Part shown: positions 2,178 through 14,026 of the stretch, piece after piece
How the letters are laid out: the number at the start of each line of letters is the position of its first letter
Numbering within the stretch: the first letter of the stretch is position 1
Origin: Aurantiochytrium sp. KH105
Lineage: Eukaryota; Sar; Bigyra; Thraustochytrida; Thraustochytriidae
DNA length: 64,000 nucleotides
Assembly: GCA_003116975.1 (NCBI GenBank)
Contig: BGKB01000075.1
Location: 168,299-232,298, forward strand
Reading direction: 5' to 3'
Translations under genes and position numbers: made by a program
The notes under the pieces: generated by a model
The model's input: the letters and a program-made list of their open reading frames with translations, nothing else
Databases searched by the model: none
Told to the model about the DNA's origin: nothing

Positions 2178-2277
2178 CTACGGTGCAGGGGGCTGTGGAT
2201 CGGGATGCGAAGAGTCTGGCCGTGATGATGGCGGGTGATTCTGCGGATTCTGCGCTTGCTGTGACTGTTGTTGCTGT

Positions 2278-2314
<37 letters not shown>

Positions 2315-3338
2315 CAAGGAGCTCGAGATTGCCGCCGGACTCAAAATTCTTTTCAATGGTGTTGAGGTCGGAGATGCGAAACTGAATGACCTTGAGAAAG
2401 TCAGACAGCTGCTCGAGCTGCGAAGCGTGCTTCCCGTTCGAAACGTGGCGCACCTTGGATCGAGCCGTGGCAATACATCGAGCGTGCAAGTTTTTTATTG
2501 ACATGATGACCTGACCCGACTCCCGCTGCAGGTCTTTGGTGATACGCTCGCTCTGTTCGCGCTCATTGTCGGCTTTGATGGCCACCGCGCGCATATTCTC
2601 CAATGTCTTTTGATTTGCATGGATTTCGCTATTGTTCACCAAGAGCTGGTTTTGCGTGTTACGCCGGAGCTGATTTAACTGCGAGCGAATGGCATCCATC
2701 TCGGTCTCGCCTTCCTCCACGAGGAGCGTCAGGTCCTTGTTGGCACCCTTCAGCGTGGAATAGCGATTGAGAATGTCCGAGATCTCGTCGTACTCACCCT
2801 CTGACGCCTCCACGGCGCCATCGAGATAGATTTGGTACCGCTTCAAGTGATCCAAGTCCATTTCCAGCTTGGCTCGCTCCTCCTCCATGACGCCCACTTT
2901 GCGGGAGAGCGAGTGAATTTTGGCTTCGTGCTGGATCCGAGTCTTGGCTTCCAATTTCGCCTTTTGTTCGGCGCGCGTGCGCTTTGCGTCATTTTCCTGG
3001 ACAAATTTTTCAAAGCGAAGCACCTGTTCCCTCATTTCTTGCTGCTTGAGCTCGAAATTGCGCTGCCGCTCGTCGCATGCCTCCATGCGTGTCTTGAACT
3101 CGTCCTTCATGAAGCTCAGCGCTTCGTCAACTTCACGCATCTCTTTACGTTTTTTCAAGAGCAAGGTCGACTGCGAGGTCTGAGTCACGCCAAAGACGAG
3201 TGCCTCAAGCTCCCCCTTTTCCTCGCGTGTTTCCGGCTGCGCGAGAGCATTCTCAAACTGAGACGCTTTGCCGTTCACATTGTTGTTGCCGCCATTGTGT
3301 GCGACGCCATGATTATCTTCCTGCGTAAGAAAAGCCAT
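2178..3338 (-). CDS. CCDC42/CFAP73-family axonemal coiled-coil protein (DUF4200)
   Basis: A 386-residue, almost entirely helical coiled-coil protein. Residues about 55-175 match the DUF4200 domain of CCDC42 and CFAP73 (MIA2): a KKRKEM start, regular heptads, and the hallmark FVQENDAKRTRA segment, equivalent to FLKENDAKRxRA in animals. In other organisms CFAP73 forms the MIA complex with CFAP100 on the doublet microtubule and helps regulate inner-arm dynein; CCDC42 acts in sperm tail formation. I cannot separate the two subfamilies by eye. The C-terminus is a polyglutamine tract (CAG codons, 2259-2317) followed by a Pro/Ser-rich tail, an addition not expected in the family. The ATG at 3338 is the first in frame. 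The gene implies a flagellated stage. Confidence 0.8.
2259..2317. repeat. CAG/CTG trinucleotide repeat in coding sequence
   Basis: Interrupted CTG/TTG run on the plus strand, read as CAG/CAA glutamine codons in the coiled-coil gene on the minus strand. It keeps the frame, being in multiples of three. Confidence 0.9.
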
Positions 3339-4217: not shown

Positions 4218-4229
4218 ATGGGAGACCAT
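3894..4229 (-). CDS. Possible small protein, unrecognised
   Basis: An ATG-initiated frame of 111 codons (a second ATG lies at 4202) with a balanced amino-acid composition, unlike the Arg/Pro-rich shadow frames nearby. It predicts helices and a Lys-rich end. The first start overlaps the LarC start codon by 12 bases on the opposite strand; the second start would avoid this. I do not recognise a family. It could equally be chance, or the last exon of a spliced gene. Confidence 0.22.
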   Translation of the reverse strand: MVSHLLFCEMLVSPSRGFSGDLTTLICQEIGDGERDARSTFAFDQARLLSKAAGRGECVALVSHAMRIARYVSDLGFRSAKMSSERADDKQRSRVRLSAGLCELRKKMKKE

Positions 4230-5939
4230 GCCGGCAAGAAAATTGCGTATGTGGACTGCTTTGCAGGTGCCGCGGGCGATATGCTTCTTGGCGCCCTCGT
4301 CGACGCAGGATTAGATATTCTTGCGTTGGAAGCAAAACTCAAGTCCATGGCCCCCGTTGCTGACCAGTGGGCTCTTCGCGCAACTCGCGTTCACAAGTCG
4401 GCTGGGGCGATTGCCGCTGTCCAAGTCCACGTGGACGTCCTCACGGAACAACTCCAAGAGCGAAATCTTGATGATGTACGTGAAATCATCGAGTCCGGTC
4501 ATGAACTCCCGCGTATCGTCAAGGACAAGGCTCTTGCCGCATTCGAAGCCCTTGCGCAAGCAGAGGCACATGTGCATGGGACAACTGTCGAACACGTTCA
4601 CTTTCACGAAGTTGGAGCCATTGATAGTATCATTGACACCGTTGGTGTCGTTATGGGACTACACATGCTTGGGGTAGAAAAGCTTTATTGCAGCAGCATT
4701 CCCATGGCGCAGGGCTATGTTCGGGCCGCGCATGGTCTACTCCCAGTTCCAGCACCCGCAACGCTTCGACTCTTGCAGAATGGCTTTGTAGTGCACAAGG
4801 CTCCAGATGAAATGCGCGGCGAGCTCGTCACGCCAACGGCAGCTAGTCTTCTGAGCGTGCTCGCCGACCCAGGATCTTTGGGTTCATATCCTGACTGTCG
4901 TTGGTCCATTGAAACCTCGGGTGCAGGCGCCGGCACAAGGGAGCGAGAGGCCTATCCGAACATTGTGCGCGTCATGATCGGGATCCCCGTTGGCTCTGTT
5001 TTGCCCAACCCTTCGCCTTCACCAAGAACGACTCATAATCAGTCCAATAATGGCGACGACGCGCCAGAGAATGCAAGTGAGGAGATACATGAACACAGTC
5101 ATGGGCATAGCCATGGTGGCCACGCCCATAGTCACGGACACAGTCATAGTCACGGTCATGGGCATAGTCATGGACACCATGGAGACCAAGATCATGCACA
5201 AGATTCTTTTTCTCGCCACATCACCGAGAACAAAACGGCGGCAAGCTTGCCAGCAGAAGTAACAGCACACGGAGAGCACACGGCTGCCAAGGCGCACGGG
5301 GGCGGAGACACAGTCGAATCTGAGCGCGCAATCCGGGCCTGCGGCGCCGGCGAAACTGCGACGGATGCAAAAGAGATCTCGAAGGCAAGCCAAGTCCCCG
5401 GCAGCCGTGGGAAGTCTGTAAACCCTTCAGGCACACAAGATACCGAGCTCGTGGTGATGGAGTGCAACATTGACGACATGACGGGCGAGCTCGCGGGCCA
5501 TCTGATTGCGGAGCTTTTGCGCGGTGGCGCGCTCGACGCGTGGTACACGAACATTCTAATGAAGAAAAATCGGCCTGCCCTGACCCTGAGCGTCTTGTGC
5601 CCTCCGCAACTTGAGGAAACGCTTATCCTGCAGATTCTCCGCGAGACTCCGACTCTTGGCGTACGCAGACACCGTGTGCGGCGCTTTGCCTGTCCCCGCC
5701 TCATGCGCGAGGTGGAAACCTCGTTCGGGACGGTCCGCGTCAAGCTGGCCCTGAGCCCTGTAAACACGGGTCAAAACGGCGCCGTCGCGGGCGCCAAGCC
5801 CGAGTTCGACGACTGTGTCGCCCTCGCGGCTCGCCACGCCGTCCCTGTCAAGCTCGTGCTGGCCGCGGCGCACGCTGCGCTGCCAGCCTCGTGGAGCTTG
5901 CCGCAGGCTAGCACCATGATCGCTGGCAGCGAGGCCTGA
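4218..5939 (+). CDS. larC: LarC-like nickel-pincer cofactor nickel-insertion protein
   Basis: A 573-residue protein of the LarC/DUF111 (TIGR00299) family. The N-terminal signature YVDCFAGAAGDM is at residues 10-21, and a conserved HVHFHEVGAIDSI block lies near residues 132-144. The C-terminal LarC2-type domain begins near residue 415 with VMECNIDDMTGE. Bacterial LarC uses CTP to insert nickel into the pyridinium bis-thiocarboxylate nucleotide, giving the nickel-pincer cofactor of lactate racemase. Between the two domains lies an extra ~150-residue linker with a His/Gly/Ser run at about residues 290-326, likely metal-binding. Family members are usually about 400-430 residues, so the linker explains the extra length. 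The start follows GAGAAGATGG, close to other plus-strand starts here. No targeting peptide is obvious, suggesting the cytosol. LarC is mainly bacterial and archaeal, so a eukaryotic copy is noteworthy; which enzyme uses the cofactor cannot be told from this window. Confidence 0.88.
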   Translation: MGDHAGKKIAYVDCFAGAAGDMLLGALVDAGLDILALEAKLKSMAPVADQWALRATRVHKSAGAIAAVQVHVDVLTEQLQERNLDDVREIIESGHELPRIVKDKALAAFEALAQAEAHVHGTTVEHVHFHEVGAIDSIIDTVGVVMGLHMLGVEKLYCSSIPMAQGYVRAAHGLLPVPAPATLRLLQNGFVVHKAPDEMRGELVTPTAASLLSVLADPGSLGSYPDCRWSIETSGAGAGTREREAYPNIVRVMIGIPVGSVLPNPSPSPRTTHNQSNNGDDAPENASEEIHEHSHGHSHGGHAHSHGHSHSHGHGHSHGHHGDQDHAQDSFSRHITENKTAASLPAEVTAHGEHTAAKAHGGGDTVESERAIRACGAGETATDAKEISKASQVPGSRGKSVNPSGTQDTELVVMECNIDDMTGELAGHLIAELLRGGALDAWYTNILMKKNRPALTLSVLCPPQLEETLILQILRETPTLGVRRHRVRRFACPRLMREVETSFGTVRVKLALSPVNTGQNGAVAGAKPEFDDCVALAARHAVPVKLVLAAAHAALPASWSLPQASTMIAGSEA

Positions 5940-7274
5940 GGCCCGCGTCCCGACAACGGACGGCAAGGACGGCTGCTGTGCCGCTCCCGCCGTGGATACG
6001 AGCCAGCAGCAGCAACAGCAGTAGCAGCAGCAGCTCTGTGGCCCCCCACGAGAGTGACGAAAACACAGCCGGTTCACGGCACGCTTGTCGAAAGTACTAC
6101 TGCCGGATCTCGCTTCGTGAAACCGGCGCCATCTGAAGCGCGCGCGCTTGCGCATGCGGCTGCGGCACGCACGAAGCCCGTCTCTTGCGTCAGCTGTGCT
6201 GCGCGCGCGCAGACGCATCTAGCCCAGGCCCAGTTGAGCCATCAGCAGCAGCAGGCAGAATCCCTGGCATCGAGAGCATGGAGGCGATCGGATGGACGGA
6301 GCGCGATCGATGTCAAAACCCGTGCGTGCGTGCGTGCGTGCGTGCGAGGGAGGCGGGCGGTTTTCCGCGTCCGAGCGTGGATGAGCCGGAGGTAGCTGCA
6401 GCGCGCGGGTTAATTTGTAGGATAACCGAAAATGGATGCAGCAGGAATGTATTTTGTGAGAGAGCTCTCTCCGGAGTACGGACGTTCGAAAGGTCCACGT
6501 CTCGAGAATTTGCGCCCCCCGGCGGTCTGATTCTGCCCCCGCTTTCGATCTCTCGCGATGGACGGCCTGGCCTGAGCAAGCCAAGCAACCAGCCAGAGCA
6601 GGCCGAGCGCGCGTTGCGATTGCTCCTTGCCGCCTCGTAGCGCAGGCAGGACCTGGTTGGCGCGAAGCAAGCCAGCAGCAAGCAGCTAGATAGATGCAGC
6701 TGGGACGAGGCGGTGGCATGCTTGCTTGCACCAGGCGAAAGAAACAGCGAGCGGCGTACGCAAGCAGGCTAACGGCGTGACGTATGGACTGCCGCGATGC
6801 GACTGCGACTGCGACTGCGACTGCGACTTGCAAGTCGAATTCGAAATCGGACCGGCAGCGGCGCGAGCGTTGCGCAGGCGTGCGTTGGGGGACAGAAGAA
6901 AAAGAAGGAAAGAAGATCCCAAAAGGCGCGAAAATGCGGAAATTCAAACCCAAAATCGTTTCAAACCCGAATCCATCCAGACCGGGATTCAAACGGCCTC
7001 GAGGCGCGAAGATCCGCCGCGCGGCGACGCGAGAGAGTCCTCGTGCGCGCGCGCGCGCGAATCGGGACAGCAGACAGCCTGCGCGCGAGAAAGACCCCGC
7101 GCGGCGCTCGCGCAAAAGTAGAGGAGGAACGTGAAGAAAACGGGAGGGTAAGCTTTGCGGAAGAAGATGTGGAGGGTGAGGGTCAAGACTCGTCCCAGGA
7201 CTACTACCACTACCCCGTGGACGACGACAACAACGACGACGACGACGAGGACGACGACGATTGTAAAAGCGACG
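5940..7274. other. Intergenic region with microsatellites
   Basis: No convincing gene. It contains CAG clusters (about 6003-6033 and 6238-6255), a GTGC run (6322-6346), a GACTGC hexanucleotide run (6798-6830) and, just upstream of the dehydrogenase start, an ACG/ACA-rich trinucleotide stretch (about 7190-7265). That last stretch stays open in the dehydrogenase frame and would encode poly-Thr. I treat it as 5' untranslated. Confidence 0.5.
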
Positions 7275-10200
7275 ATGGCGACGCGAAGCTTGACGTCGAA
7301 GGCCGGAAAGGCTGCCGTAACGGCAAGATGGACGACGCCCGGCAATGCCTTTTGGCGAGAGGGCAAAAGCGCGTTCCGCGCGGACTTTACAAGAGCGCTC
7401 TCGGCGGCCATTGGCGGGCCTAGGGATCCCGATGAGCATGAGGAAAGGCAGCCGCGCAAGATTCGGCGCGCCGACAGCGAGATGGTCGTCATGGAGATGG
7501 ATGATGCACTTGGTCAGAGCAAGGAGCGATTCGACGAGCTGCTCGACATGCTGCAGCGCGAGCAGCGCGAGGCCGCCAACGTCAAGGTGCCCTGGTTTCT
7601 GCAAAACATGCCAGATGCCTACTTCAAACAGCTCAAACCCGAGCTCCGGCATCAGCACCTTGCCGCTCTCGTTGCCCTGTACGACTTTGGCGCCGTCCCA
7701 GACCTGACGCTGCACAGCGATAACAACAACACCATGACACTGATCAGCGGTGGAAATAACTCCCCGCAGCGCCTCGTACAGCAGATTGATCGCATGCCCA
7801 CGAACACGCCCCTTTCGGGAATGAGCATTTTCAACTCGAACGATGGCGAGATCAGCTTGAATGTCTTTCGCTTCTTTGACGCCGACGAGGACGACTCGAG
7901 CGAGCCTGCAGTCCTCTCGGATGAGATTCGGGCATACCTTGCGGACCTGCACGCAGGCAAGTTTGAGGGCGATCCGTTGCATGCGGACGCAAGCACCTTT
8001 CCGGACGAGCAGGCGCTGGAGCGCTTCGTTCGCGAGCGATGCAGGCCCGACTACGTGCTGCGCAGCAGTCCTCGGCGCTTTTGCAAACAGGTCGAACTCT
8101 ACAATAAAATTATGCAGGACGGCGAGGACCAGGTTGGCATTGACATCGAGCCAAACTGGAACGGCGTCCCGCACCGCACCATGATCACGCTGGCCATCAC
8201 CAACGTGTTGACCATGGCAGCAATGAAGCGCATCAGCAAGTACTTTGCAAGCAAGAATTTAAACAATGTCCGCACGCATCTCGATCTCGTGCGCGGGCCC
8301 GCCACCGAGGAGGAGCGCAAGGAGGGCATGACCACGAGCGCACTTTGCGGCGACGCGCAGAGTCTCTTGCGTTCCAACACCGTCTCGATGATTCGCATTC
8401 TCGTTGAGCCCCATGAGCAGGATGCCAAGGATATTGACATGGACACGCTCAACGCTCGTCTCGTCGAAGACTTGCCCACCGTGAGCAAGTGGATCGACGA
8501 CCGCGCACTCTCGCTCTTGGGCCGCTATGGCATGTCTGCGCGCGAAGCGGACATTGTCTTGGCGTTGTGCGATCTCGCGCACGCCATTCTGGCGCCAAAG
8601 GACGCCTTTGAGTTTGCGCGCAGCAACATTGAGAACGTGGTCATGGAAGAATCGCGCATCGACTTTACGCGCGCCATTCTCGACCTCTTTGTTCGACGTT
8701 TCGACCCCAGCCCCGAGGCTGCCAATTTCCCGGAAAAGCAGAATGAAGCCTTTGCGCAGCGCATCGCAGAGATCCGCGAGATGATCCTGCAGTCTGGCGA
8801 GCTTGAGACCGCGCAGCGGACCTTTAGCACGTTGCTCGACATTGTCGAAGGCACATACCGCACGAATGCCTTTGTTCCCGGCCGGTTTGGCCTCGCGCTT
8901 CGTCTCGACCCGCGTGTTTGCGTGGAGCATTTGCTCAACAACACCAACCGACCTGAAGTACCACATGGCATCTTCTTTGTGCACGGCCGTCGCTTTGCCG
9001 GTTTCCATGTCCGCTTTCGCGACATTTCACGCGGCGGCCTGCGCGTCGTGACGCCTCGCAACAGCGAAGTGCACGGCGTGGAGAGCGCCCGTCAGCTCAA
9101 GGAATGTTACGACTTGGCCTTTGCGCAACAACTCAAGAATAAGGACATTGCCGAGGGAGGGTCAAAAGCTGTCTGCCTCGTGGATCTCGACGGCATCGAC
9201 AAGGCTGGCAAGGACCACGTCATGCGCAAGAGTCTCAAGGCAATGGTCAACTCGGTGCTGGACCTCATCACTCCCGATCCAGATGACCGATCCTGTGTGG
9301 TGGACCACATGGGCGGCGCCGAAGAATTCATTTACTTTGGACCCGACGAGCAGGTCACCCCTGAACACATTAACTGGATCGTCTCGCGCGCCGGGCAACG
9401 CGGATACGGCATGCCCAACGCATTCATGTCGTCCAAGCCTGATGCTGGCATCAATCACAAGGTGTATGGCGTCACCAGCGAGGGCGTCAGCGTCTTTTTG
9501 CACGAAGCGCTCCTTGCGACAGGCGTTGACGTGACCAAACCGTTCTCGGTGAAGATCACCGGTGGCCCAGACGGCGACGTAGCGGGTAATCTCTTGAAGA
9601 TTCTCTACCGCGAGTACAAGGATAATGCACGAATCGTTGGTCTTGCGGACGGAACGGCCGGTCTCGAAGATCCAGACGGCATCAACTGGGACGAACTTTT
9701 GCGCATGTTTGACGAGGCACTACCGCTCGAGCAGTTCTCGCGCGACAAGCTCGGGCCGAACTCAGACTTTTACCTTGCCGATACGCCGACCAACATCAAC
9801 AAGCGCAACACCATGCACAATCGTGTCAAGGCCGACGCCTTCGTTCCGGCAGGCGGGCGTCCTGCGACCATTAGTGACGTCAACTGGGAAAAGTACCTCT
9901 TGCCGGATGGCACGCCGTCAAGCCCGCTCATTGTGGAAGGTGCCAACCTCTTCCTCACGCCTGTGGCTCGCGAGAAACTTGGCGCCCACGGCTGTGTCAT
10001 TGTCAAAGACAGCTCCGCCAACAAGTGTGGCGTGATTTGCTCTTCAATGGAGATTATCGCTTCGATGCTTTTGGACAAGGCTGAGTTCCTCGATCTCAAG
10101 GGCGTCTTTGTGGAGGACGTGCTCGATCTCTTGCGCAAACGCGCCAAGAGCGAGGCCGAGCTCATGTTCCGCGAGTACAGGTCGAACCCGTCGCTGCCCT

Positions 10201-10640
10201 TGCCTCCCGTGAGCGAGCGCATTAGTCGGGCCATTAATCGTTCCACCGACGCTATCGCCGCTTCGCTCGAAGAGCTGCCCGAGGAAAAGTTCCGCGAGCT
10301 CTTGCAAATCGTGCGCGCCTCTTTGCCCAAGTCACTCATGGACAAGGCTTGGGACCGATTTGAAGATCGTGTCCCGGAAGCCTATACGCGCTTTCAGCTG
10401 GCTTGCATTCTTGCCAGCGAGCTTGTCTACAAGGAGGGTCTCCCTTATGTGGAGTCGGTCAGCGATGACGGTCTTGCTGCCATGGTAGTCGATTATGCGG
10501 ACCGCCAGTTGCAGGTGGCTAGGTTGGCCACCAAGGTTGATTCTGGTGAAAAGCTTTCCAAGGACGAACAAGATCTCCTTTCCGACATCCTTAGGGCGGG
10601 CGGCGCACGAACCATGGTGGATCATCACCTTCGGCCGTAG
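7275..10640 (+). CDS. GDH2: NAD-specific glutamate dehydrogenase, large (GDH2-type), mitochondrial
   Basis: The protein is 1121 residues when started at the ATG at 7275. It oxidatively deaminates glutamate to 2-oxoglutarate with NAD. Its size and motifs fit the ~115-kDa NAD-GDH class of fungi and oomycetes rather than the ~50-kDa hexameric enzymes. Visible features are a long regulatory N-terminal region, the substrate-lysine block GGSKAVCLVDL near residue 628, and the GGPDGDVAGN nucleotide-binding motif near residue 763, followed by ADGTAGLEDPDG. The first ~45 residues are rich in Arg, Lys, Ser and Ala with almost no acids, as in a mitochondrial presequence. The open frame continues upstream only through a repeat-derived poly-Thr stretch without a better ATG, so I reject that extension. 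No neighbour is obviously related in function. Confidence 0.92.
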   Translation: MATRSLTSKAGKAAVTARWTTPGNAFWREGKSAFRADFTRALSAAIGGPRDPDEHEERQPRKIRRADSEMVVMEMDDALGQSKERFDELLDMLQREQREAANVKVPWFLQNMPDAYFKQLKPELRHQHLAALVALYDFGAVPDLTLHSDNNNTMTLISGGNNSPQRLVQQIDRMPTNTPLSGMSIFNSNDGEISLNVFRFFDADEDDSSEPAVLSDEIRAYLADLHAGKFEGDPLHADASTFPDEQALERFVRERCRPDYVLRSSPRRFCKQVELYNKIMQDGEDQVGIDIEPNWNGVPHRTMITLAITNVLTMAAMKRISKYFASKNLNNVRTHLDLVRGPATEEERKEGMTTSALCGDAQSLLRSNTVSMIRILVEPHEQDAKDIDMDTLNARLVEDLPTVSKWIDDRALSLLGRYGMSAREADIVLALCDLAHAILAPKDAFEFARSNIENVVMEESRIDFTRAILDLFVRRFDPSPEAANFPEKQNEAFAQRIAEIREMILQSGELETAQRTFSTLLDIVEGTYRTNAFVPGRFGLALRLDPRVCVEHLLNNTNRPEVPHGIFFVHGRRFAGFHVRFRDISRGGLRVVTPRNSEVHGVESARQLKECYDLAFAQQLKNKDIAEGGSKAVCLVDLDGIDKAGKDHVMRKSLKAMVNSVLDLITPDPDDRSCVVDHMGGAEEFIYFGPDEQVTPEHINWIVSRAGQRGYGMPNAFMSSKPDAGINHKVYGVTSEGVSVFLHEALLATGVDVTKPFSVKITGGPDGDVAGNLLKILYREYKDNARIVGLADGTAGLEDPDGINWDELLRMFDEALPLEQFSRDKLGPNSDFYLADTPTNINKRNTMHNRVKADAFVPAGGRPATISDVNWEKYLLPDGTPSSPLIVEGANLFLTPVAREKLGAHGCVIVKDSSANKCGVICSSMEIIASMLLDKAEFLDLKGVFVEDVLDLLRKRAKSEAELMFREYRSNPSLPLPPVSERISRAINRSTDAIAASLEELPEEKFRELLQIVRASLPKSLMDKAWDRFEDRVPEAYTRFQLACILASELVYKEGLPYVESVSDDGLAAMVVDYADRQLQVARLATKVDSGEKLSKDEQDLLSDILRAGGARTMVDHHLRP

Positions 10641-11371: not shown

Positions 11372-14026
11372 TTAAGGGGAGGAAGGAAGATTGATGCCCT
11401 TCTTCTCTGCGATACGCTGGATCGCGGTCTGAAGCACAACGGCCTTCTCCTTGACCTCGGGAACGGCGAGCATGGTGCCGAGACGTTCCGAGAGAATGTT
11501 GACGTTGTGGCGCCGCTGCTTTTCGCGACGACTCTTCTTGAGACGCCTACGAAGCGCCTTCTGTTCCTGCGTGAGGTTCGGCCCCGCCGGGAGCGCTTGG
11601 TCGTCATCGTCGTCCTCCTCAATCTCATCCTCGCCGGGGACGCGATCGGGCACAGGCGTTCCTTCCGTCTCATGGATGAAGTCAATGGCCGTTTGCAGCA
11701 CAGAAGCGCGATCCTTTGACTCACGTTCGACGGGGTCAAAGAGCAGCGCGCAAAGCTCGTCGTATTTCGTATTTAGGACGAGACGACGCTGGCGCTCACG
11801 TGTGCTCTTCTTTTCGCGACGCACCTCGAGTTTGACTTGCTTACGTGCCTCGCGCTCGCGCTGGCGGGAAATGACCAGGTCTGCGACGGGGGATCCGGTC
11901 GACGAGACGTTATCATTTCCTCCAAGGCCAGGGACGCCGAGACTGGCCAAATAATTTGATGACATCATGCCTGGACCCGCACCTTGCTGGATGGAATGCT
12001 GGTGCTGCTGTTGCTGGCTGAGCAAACGACGGAGAATGGCCTGTTGGTCCAGGCCAGTGGAGGAAAGACCGTGCGCGGGTCCGCCGCCATTCGAATAGCT
12101 GGGCGAGCCGCCGAGGCCAAATTGGCCGTAGGAGGAAGTCGGGTCGGCGCCAGCCGTAGGATGGTTGTTGCTGCTCGCGCTGCTGTTGCTCGCATTGCTG
12201 CTCAGGGACGAAGGGCCGCCGTAAGGTGATCCGCTGGATTGGGCCGAAGTGCTGGCTGCATAGCGTGACAAGAGAGTGGAGATTGCGTTTGGCGATAGAG
12301 AACTAGATCCCGGCATGGAGGACGAAGCGCTGTTCGGAATGCCAATGCCGGCCCCAAAGTCGCCGTTGGTGGCGCCGTTGAGACCAATGCCAGCTCCGTG
12401 CGAGGCCTGCGAGCCAAACGGGCTGCTCGACGGTGACGATGCCGAAGATGACGAAGAGGAAGAGGATGAAGACGGGGCAGTGGGTCCGTTCGCTCCAAGG
12501 GAGCTAAAAAGAGCACCGAGCGAAGCCGTTTTGGGGTCAGTGCTAGCATCATCGTGGCGGGCGTGCGGTGAAGATGAGGGCAACGAAGAAGAGGAGGCAG
12601 AGGGAGCCGCCCCGTTCCGGTAGAGCGCGTTCGTGAGCTGCTCGTTGAGCTCGCGCGTCTCTTGCTCGTGCTTGAGCTTTGTATGTTCAACGAGATGCAT
12701 AAGCGTCTGAGGGTCCATCGTTTTGTCTTGCAGGGCCTGCATAATTTGTGAAAACTCGGCCTGTTGTTTCTCCTGTATGGCTTCCTTCTTTTGCTGCAAC
12801 ATGAGAATGAGGTTGAACACATTGTTATTGGGGCCGCTTGCAGTTGGCGATGTCGAAGACGTTTCGGTCGCATTCGGGGTCGTCGGCGACGAGGACGGCG
12901 CCGAGTTCGAGGCCACAGATGCCAAGCTGCCCAAGGCCGCGAGACCAAGGTTGTTTGGGCTCGCCTTGTGCTGGTTGTCCTGATGTCCGTAGGTTTGCGC
13001 GTGTCGCTGCTGAGATCCGCCGTTGATGGGGCCGGAAGACTTTTGAAGCTCCAGAAACCTGGACAGGAGCTGATTCGTGTCCGCACCTTGTTGCTTGTTC
13101 ATCTCACCCGCAGAGGAAAGCATGGAGCTTGGAGGTGCAGGTGCGGGGAACGCCTTGGGTGCGCCTCTTTGCTGTTTCTGGGCATTGAGCTGAAAGGCGC
13201 TGAGAGAGGACGGCTGCTTTTTGACGGCTTGGCTTTGGCTGAGAAGGTGCGCCGGGGCAACGTCGACACGCATGACGGGCCCATCGTCGTCGCTGTCTTC
13301 TTCTTCTCCCTCACCCCCCTCCTCTTGTTCTTCGGGATTCCTCCGGCCTTGTGGCCCTTCGTGGATGGGCCCGCCTTTTTCTGTGACGGTTCGCAGACGC
13401 ATCGAGTCCGGGAAGCTCGTGAGGGCCATCATGCTACCCGGCCGATCACGCTTTGAACCGAGCCCCTGCTCAATTCGTCTTCGCTCGAACTCGCTCTGTG
13501 CGGCGTTCAGAGGACCTGCGGGCCCGCGAACGGCGCCGGGTCCGGCCATTTTGGACAGATTCTCTTGTTTGACCCGTTTGCGCGCCAAGGTACCAATGTT
13601 GCGCTTGAACTGGTCGACCATGGACTTGCGCTCACGAAAGAGGGTTGACTTTTGCTCGCCCGAGAGAGCCGAGTCGTCCACGGAGATAAGCTGGAGATAG
13701 GTATTGAGTTCGCTGGCGTTGCCTGCTTCCGATGCGTCGAGCGCGGCGACGATGGCGGCGTCATTGTTCATGACGAGATTTTTCATGAGTGACTTATGGG
13801 AAGGGTCGACGCCTCCTCCCGGTTTGCAGAGCATTGAAGCCTTGCGAAGCAGGCCGCTCATGAGTCGTTTTTCCTGCTGCTGGGTGTCCATCTTGCGTCC
13901 CTCGGCCTCGAGCTTGGCGGACTGGAGCATGTTTTTGTCGCTTGGCCACGATCTCTGCAGCGAGTGCGAGAGCGAGCTGACGATGTCGCGCGCATCGTCC
14001 TTGCCCCCGGCGCTCATGTCGGCCAT
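11372..14026 (-). CDS. Putative transcription factor with two tandem bHLH-like domains
   Basis: An 884-residue protein. The first ~715 residues are low-complexity (Ser, Gln, Asn, Gly, Pro) with acidic and coiled-coil patches. Two basic helix-loop-helix-like modules sit at the C-terminus. Module 1 (about 738-786) has the basic stretch TRERQRR, then helix 1, a longer loop, and RASVLQTAIDFIHE. Module 2 (about 830-878) has SRREKQRRHN, helix 1 with ILSERL, a short loop, and KAVVLQTAIQRIAE. Both keep the E-x-x-R-R pattern that reads E-box DNA, and both have Lys where His or Arg is usual four residues earlier. The shared VLQTAI suggests internal duplication. An acidic linker (about 800-810) separates them. 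The family call rests on motif shape only. Likely nuclear. Confidence 0.6.
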   Translation of the reverse strand: MADMSAGGKDDARDIVSSLSHSLQRSWPSDKNMLQSAKLEAEGRKMDTQQQEKRLMSGLLRKASMLCKPGGGVDPSHKSLMKNLVMNNDAAIVAALDASEAGNASELNTYLQLISVDDSALSGEQKSTLFRERKSMVDQFKRNIGTLARKRVKQENLSKMAGPGAVRGPAGPLNAAQSEFERRRIEQGLGSKRDRPGSMMALTSFPDSMRLRTVTEKGGPIHEGPQGRRNPEEQEEGGEGEEEDSDDDGPVMRVDVAPAHLLSQSQAVKKQPSSLSAFQLNAQKQQRGAPKAFPAPAPPSSMLSSAGEMNKQQGADTNQLLSRFLELQKSSGPINGGSQQRHAQTYGHQDNQHKASPNNLGLAALGSLASVASNSAPSSSPTTPNATETSSTSPTASGPNNNVFNLILMLQQKKEAIQEKQQAEFSQIMQALQDKTMDPQTLMHLVEHTKLKHEQETRELNEQLTNALYRNGAAPSASSSSLPSSSPHARHDDASTDPKTASLGALFSSLGANGPTAPSSSSSSSSSSASSPSSSPFGSQASHGAGIGLNGATNGDFGAGIGIPNSASSSMPGSSSLSPNAISTLLSRYAASTSAQSSGSPYGGPSSLSSNASNSSASSNNHPTAGADPTSSYGQFGLGGSPSYSNGGGPAHGLSSTGLDQQAILRRLLSQQQQHQHSIQQGAGPGMMSSNYLASLGVPGLGGNDNVSSTGSPVADLVISRQREREARKQVKLEVRREKKSTRERQRRLVLNTKYDELCALLFDPVERESKDRASVLQTAIDFIHETEGTPVPDRVPGEDEIEEDDDDDQALPAGPNLTQEQKALRRRLKKSRREKQRRHNVNILSERLGTMLAVPEVKEKAVVLQTAIQRIAEKKGINLPSSP

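Follow-up and report, generated by a model that had tools for sequence, protein, structure and literature searches.

Aurantiochytrium sp. KH105 carries a LarC gene which, in our reading, is resident in this eukaryotic genome and would serve the last step of a complete pathway for the nickel-pincer nucleotide (NPN), an unusual nickel cofactor best known from bacteria. The cofactor would be used by a LarA protein, most likely a D-mannonate/D-gluconate 2-epimerase. To this reading as a whole we assign a probability of about three in four.

The LarC gene and its histidine-rich linker

The gene lies in a window (the whole stretch of DNA analysed) of 64,000 nucleotides from contig C75, in an assembly of 76,034,492 bases and 367 contigs. 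LarC is present twice in this assembly, the second haplotype being found on contig C273. The features are listed below in window positions, except for the last one.

4218..5939, + strand: LarC coding sequence, a single frame of 573 aa with an ATG start, stop included
4245..5027, + strand: LarC1 half, Pfam stretch at residues 10-270 (PF01969), with TIGR00299 over residues 82-254
4998..5441, + strand: linker joining LarC1 and LarC2 (residues 261-408), 148 aa, of which 22 are His
5094..5207, + strand: histidine-rich tract covering residues 293-330, with 16 His among 38 aa
5451..5816, + strand: LarC2 half, residues 412-533 (NF052512)
2178..3338, - strand: neighbouring DUF4200 coiled-coil gene (PF13863, 93.6 bits), context outside the pathway
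7155..10640, + strand: neighbouring large glutamate dehydrogenase gene (PF00208, 89.1 bits; PF05088, 59.6 bits), context
11372..14026, - strand: neighbouring bHLH gene
C273:19113-20837: second haplotype copy of LarC

The open reading frame matches the Pfam Ni_insertion family (PF01969) with an E value of 2.8e-120 (402.3 bits), far past chance, and exceeds the NCBIfam equivalog cut-offs for both halves, scoring 183.1 bits against 90 with the LarC1 model TIGR00299 and 133.7 bits against 50 with the LarC2 model NF052512. These data confirm an intact LarC with both halves at equivalog grade, in agreement with the original prediction, which had recognised the N- and C-terminal signatures in one frame. 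In the PDB, the matches were the LarC chains 12bi (266.8 bits) and 6bwo (72.9 bits) and an uncharacterised protein, 3c19 (28.5 bits).

For the comparison with bacteria, a script-based selection retained 63 of 73 loci, those in which one frame contains both LarC halves; the loci dropped were L022, L029, L063, L077, L078, L087, L091, L092, L093 and L094, of which L063 nevertheless holds a 402-aa ORF at the LarC position. Following alignment with the 63 bacterial sequences, 48 of the 50 near-invariant columns (those with one residue in at least 95% of the bacterial LarCs) were found to be kept in the Aurantiochytrium protein.

The region separating the two halves is of a different kind. In the 63 bacterial LarCs the gap between the halves measures 2-48 residues and contains 0-3 histidines, the patterns used to scan the bacterial loci having included one taken from the Aurantiochytrium histidine-rich tract. 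Judged from these sequences, the linker of 148 residues with 22 histidines is an unusual feature of the Aurantiochytrium LarC, with no such arrangement among the bacterial proteins compared. Within the tract, 3 of 114 nucleotides differ between the haplotypes and the amino acids are all the same. The literature searched, with few subscription journals among it, yielded no description of a histidine-rich linker in a eukaryotic LarC. Separately, one of the dropped loci, L022 (a Chloroflexi MAG), holds at about 6000-7000 a LarC1-only ORF with a histidine-rich tail at its end; a LarC2 match was not found in that locus.

Histidine-rich nickel proteins include UreE, HypB and SlyD. As in these proteins, a histidine-rich stretch is joined in LarC to a nickel-handling protein; unlike in them, the stretch is an internal linker of a nickel insertase. 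As a guess, the linker might hold nickel or hand it over.

Partner genes in the same genome

The original prediction suggested that the organism makes or salvages NPN, and proposed to search its genome for LarB, LarE and LarA. All three were found in the same assembly and passed their curated cut-offs (LarE narrowly), which supports the suggestion. Their positions, on the respective contigs, are as follows, together with those of a NadD-like gene pair close to LarB.

C41:529962-530966, - strand: LarB, 257 aa, two inferred exons
C16:132880-133883, + strand: LarB, 257 aa, two inferred exons
C41:347912-348971, - strand: LarE, 295 aa, two inferred exons
C16:316340-317365, + strand: LarE, 295 aa, two inferred exons
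C85:110578-112206, + strand: LarA, 542 aa, one frame
C83:112763-114391, + strand: LarA, 542 aa, one frame
C41:532832-533449 and 534510-535115, - strand: NadD-like genes
C16:130388-131005 and 128733-129338, + strand: NadD-like genes
L016, 7772-8605 and 9456-9998: NadD-like genes, in positions of that locus

With its inferred exons joined, LarB reaches 271.7 bits with NF033503 (cut-off 175) and 200.9 bits with the PDB LarB 8soq, and the match to the bacterial LarB spans the exon joint. Weak further matches to the LarB model on C64 and C40 (34.4 and 31.3 bits against 175) come from frames with lengths of 984 and 1022 aa and were discounted as probable PurE-type domains belonging to larger proteins. 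The joined LarE scores 163 bits with TIGR00268, narrowly above the cut-off of 150, whereas its unspliced pieces, with 84 and 62.6 bits, stay under it. Among PDB chains, LarE matches a GMP synthase subunit best (30.5 bits), slightly ahead of LarE itself (29.6 and 28.8 bits). The low scores of the unspliced pieces and this PDB ranking weaken the LarE assignment; in the NCBIfam scan, LarE is far ahead of GMP synthase, which comes second with 37.3 bits. Apparently, LarB and LarE contain one GT-AG intron each. The one in LarB starts with GTGCGT, ends with AG and is 230 or 231 nt long, while the one in LarE starts with GTGAGT, ends with AG and is 138 or 172 nt long, the two copies agreeing in the position of each intron.

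LarE shows the PP-loop SGGVDS at position 28 (motif SGGXDS), the sequence CYHC at residues 99-102 and C185. According to the accessible part of PMC9283937, such CXXC-C cysteines are the pattern of the [4Fe-4S]-type LarE and, because of this pattern, the protein can be assigned to the [4Fe-4S]-cluster type, like the LarE of Thermotoga maritima. In addition, an R-x-R sequence lies near the positions of Arg212 and Arg214 of L. plantarum, in a gapped part of the alignment.

In each of the two copies, a tandem NadD-like pair was observed at distances of roughly 1.9 and 3.5 kb from LarB, a closeness noticed after the fact; NaAD is both the product of NadD and the substrate of LarB. The NadD-like genes score 71.8-78.3 bits with TIGR00482, below the cut-off of 112.45. 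No further match to this model was found in the genome, and inspection by eye of six frames from the other CTP_transf_like loci revealed no NMNAT-like one.

Using residues 1-430 of 542, LarA was assigned to NF052594, 'nickel-dependent putative hexonate epimerase' (LarA homologue group 18), at 624.7 bits (cut-off 500), and it matches 4NAR (GntE2) with 129.7 bits. In the alignment to 4NAR, with positions taken from PMC7583248, the cofactor residues R46, K164 and H180 and the catalytic residues D43, H76, H154 and K284 are all kept. E155-V156, directly after the catalytic histidine, match the GntE selectivity residues E and V; an A-H pair at 348-349 may correspond to the published selectivity residues A and H. 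The residue preceding the catalytic lysine is N283, compared to G286 in GntE2. Two bacterial group-18 LarAs are 57% and 53% identical to the Aurantiochytrium protein, which differs from them in being eukaryotic and in carrying a low-complexity C-terminal extension. The latter comprises about 110 residues with a high content of Ala, Gly, Glu and Lys, and is missing from two bacterial homologues. On C85 and C83, LarA has as neighbours a gene for a Sulf_transp (YeeE/TsuA-like) membrane protein and a LipB gene (L020, 1899-3842 and 6543-7319).

Residence in the eukaryotic genome

The earlier description of LarC as flanked by eukaryotic genes holds: its neighbours are the DUF4200, glutamate dehydrogenase and bHLH genes listed above, and ORFs with the same start sequence as the first two flank LarC on C273, in the same order and on the same strands. 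The haplotype copies of LarC are identical at 556 of 573 aligned residues. Each of LarA, LarB, LarC and LarE exists as a pair of copies on different contigs, and the genes found near the partners encode, among others, IFT172-like, PUF/NOP9 and Kelch-BTB proteins and a protein kinase. Between haplotypes, dN/dS values of 0.122 for LarA, 0.114 for LarB, 0.180 for LarC and 0.164 for LarE point to purifying selection. All together, four gene families, their open frames, their paired haplotype copies and purifying selection on them are directly seen in this assembly.

All four Lar families are mainly prokaryotic, as would be expected if the genes came from contaminating bacteria, or if a piece of bacterial DNA had been wrongly joined to the contig. 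We rejected this explanation, which we now hold to be hardly credible, on the paired copies on different contigs, the eukaryotic neighbours at LarC and at the partner genes, and the inferred introns in LarB and LarE. Moreover, across the 73 bacterial loci the best LarC segments are just 31-48% identical, with no close bacterial match. The paired partners, the inferred introns and the low haplotype dN/dS argue instead for a resident pathway. In codon usage, the Lar genes show correlations of 0.60-0.79 with eight hand-picked neighbour genes (leave-one-out among those, 0.65-0.92), the same correlation being 0.04, 0.14, 0.51 and 0.61 for four bacterial genes; since two of these four reach 0.51 and 0.61, codon usage is weak evidence for a native origin. 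As for the LarC tree that had been proposed as a check, its bacterial part was run, with 63 bacterial sequences and the two haplotypes. The branch leading to the eukaryotic pair is long (1.27) and attaches at an unresolved fork, under a long-branch warning that names the pair together with L032, so that no bacterial donor can be named.

Proposed pathway and substrate of LarA

In bacteria, LarB converts NaAD, LarE inserts sulfur and LarC inserts nickel with CTP, as described in the accessible parts of PMC11770544, PMC9283937 and PMC11796402. By analogy with this published biochemistry, in Aurantiochytrium LarB would carboxylate and hydrolyse NaAD, LarE, of the [4Fe-4S]-cluster type by its cysteines, would insert two sulfurs, LarC would insert nickel with CTP, and the finished NPN would be carried by one LarA-family protein. 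As in the bacterial and archaeal pathway (L. plantarum, Thermotoga maritima), all four families are present at curated cut-off. In contrast to the operons of those organisms, the Aurantiochytrium genes are separated by contig boundaries or by 180 kb; further differences are that LarB and LarE have inferred introns, LarC its 148-aa histidine-rich linker and LarA its extra C-terminus.

From the family of LarA and from bacterial gene context, we infer that NPN most likely serves the 2-epimerisation of the hexonates D-mannonate and D-gluconate. A search for bacterial LarAs, covering 50 of the 73 loci of the bacterial LarC set, gave some match in 30 of the 50 and a group-18 LarA above cut-off in two. 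One of these, L151 (G040:C175, 1-7842, a Bacteroides-labelled MAG), is a hexuronate cluster with group-18 LarA, D-mannonate oxidoreductase, UxaE and UxaC. Its LarA, the one with 57% identity to the Aurantiochytrium protein, lies behind a LacI-type regulator and follows, after 12 bases and in the same orientation, the D-mannonate oxidoreductase gene (367.7 bits, cut-off 281), the UxaE and UxaC genes running in the opposite direction. At the other locus, L152, the only neighbour scanned gave no family match. The Aurantiochytrium genome has D-mannonate oxidoreductase genes of its own, the next-best match being at 132.3 bits:

C119:36475-37266: D-mannonate oxidoreductase, NF006132, 331.6 bits against 281
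C7:3650-4441: D-mannonate oxidoreductase, NF006132, 331.5 bits against 281

The presence of this oxidoreductase both beside a bacterial LarA, at one of the two loci, and in Aurantiochytrium supports D-mannonate/D-gluconate as substrate. Glucuronate isomerase UxaC was not found in the search of the Aurantiochytrium genome, which counts against the assignment and would fit a real NPN pathway whose LarA acts on another hydroxy acid, such as a different hexonate, an aldarate or a uronate derivative. The same alternative is favoured by N283 before the catalytic lysine, by the word 'putative' in the name of NF052594 and by the accessible part of PMC7583248, in which the activity of group 18 is a hypothesis. 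Nonetheless, it appears unlikely to us, given the GntE-like E155-V156, the oxidoreductase evidence and the placement of all eukaryotic LarA homologues in the GntE branch, as reported in the available text of PMC11770544. A role of LarC and its linker in general nickel storage or in the service of urease, with an inactive NPN pathway, would find some ground in the one pair of urease alpha genes in the genome and in the look of the linker, which resembles a metal-holding segment. This is very improbable, as LarA, LarB and LarE are intact, pass their cut-offs and show dN/dS of 0.114-0.164, and LarC keeps nearly all of its near-invariant positions. A NicO-family nickel transporter was not found in the genome search, which counts against the overall reading.

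The preferred reading, a resident NPN pathway with a D-mannonate/D-gluconate 2-epimerase, can be extended to a fuller picture, tentative and to our mind somewhat short of an even chance. NPN would be made de novo in the organism's own cell, the oxygen-labile [4Fe-4S] cluster of LarE coming from the host Fe-S machinery and nickel being buffered by a domain that LarC carries between its halves; a mannonate-to-gluconate shunt would consist of LarA and D-mannonate oxidoreductase, and NaAD might come from the NadD-like pair beside LarB.

The remark in the original prediction that NPN was not known as an established eukaryotic trait has to be corrected. The available text of PMC11770544 reports that some unicellular eukaryotes carry NPN-biosynthetic and LarA-like genes, and that LarAH15 of the oomycete Phytophthora nicotianae is an active D-gluconate 2-epimerase that also acts on D-mannonate; the accessible part of PMC12611868 restates that eukaryotic LarA homologues were reported previously. 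Compared by description only, the Aurantiochytrium LarA is, like LarAH15, a eukaryotic homologue, and, unlike in that report, LarB, LarE and LarC are here documented in the same genome. Since such genes were already noted in a few microbial eukaryotes, the trait is not wholly new, yet it offers a good testable example.

In conclusion, the locus adds a more complete case to those already known, and its LarC linker is unusual. In this one eukaryotic genome, a gene can be assigned to every known step of NPN synthesis and to one enzyme that uses the cofactor. It turns the general statement that some unicellular eukaryotes have NPN genes into an experimentally addressable case. If active, the pathway would be a second nickel-dependent route alongside urease in the Aurantiochytrium genome, and would raise the matter of how a eukaryotic cell copes with free nickel and with a sulfur transferase that depends on an oxygen-sensitive Fe-S cluster.
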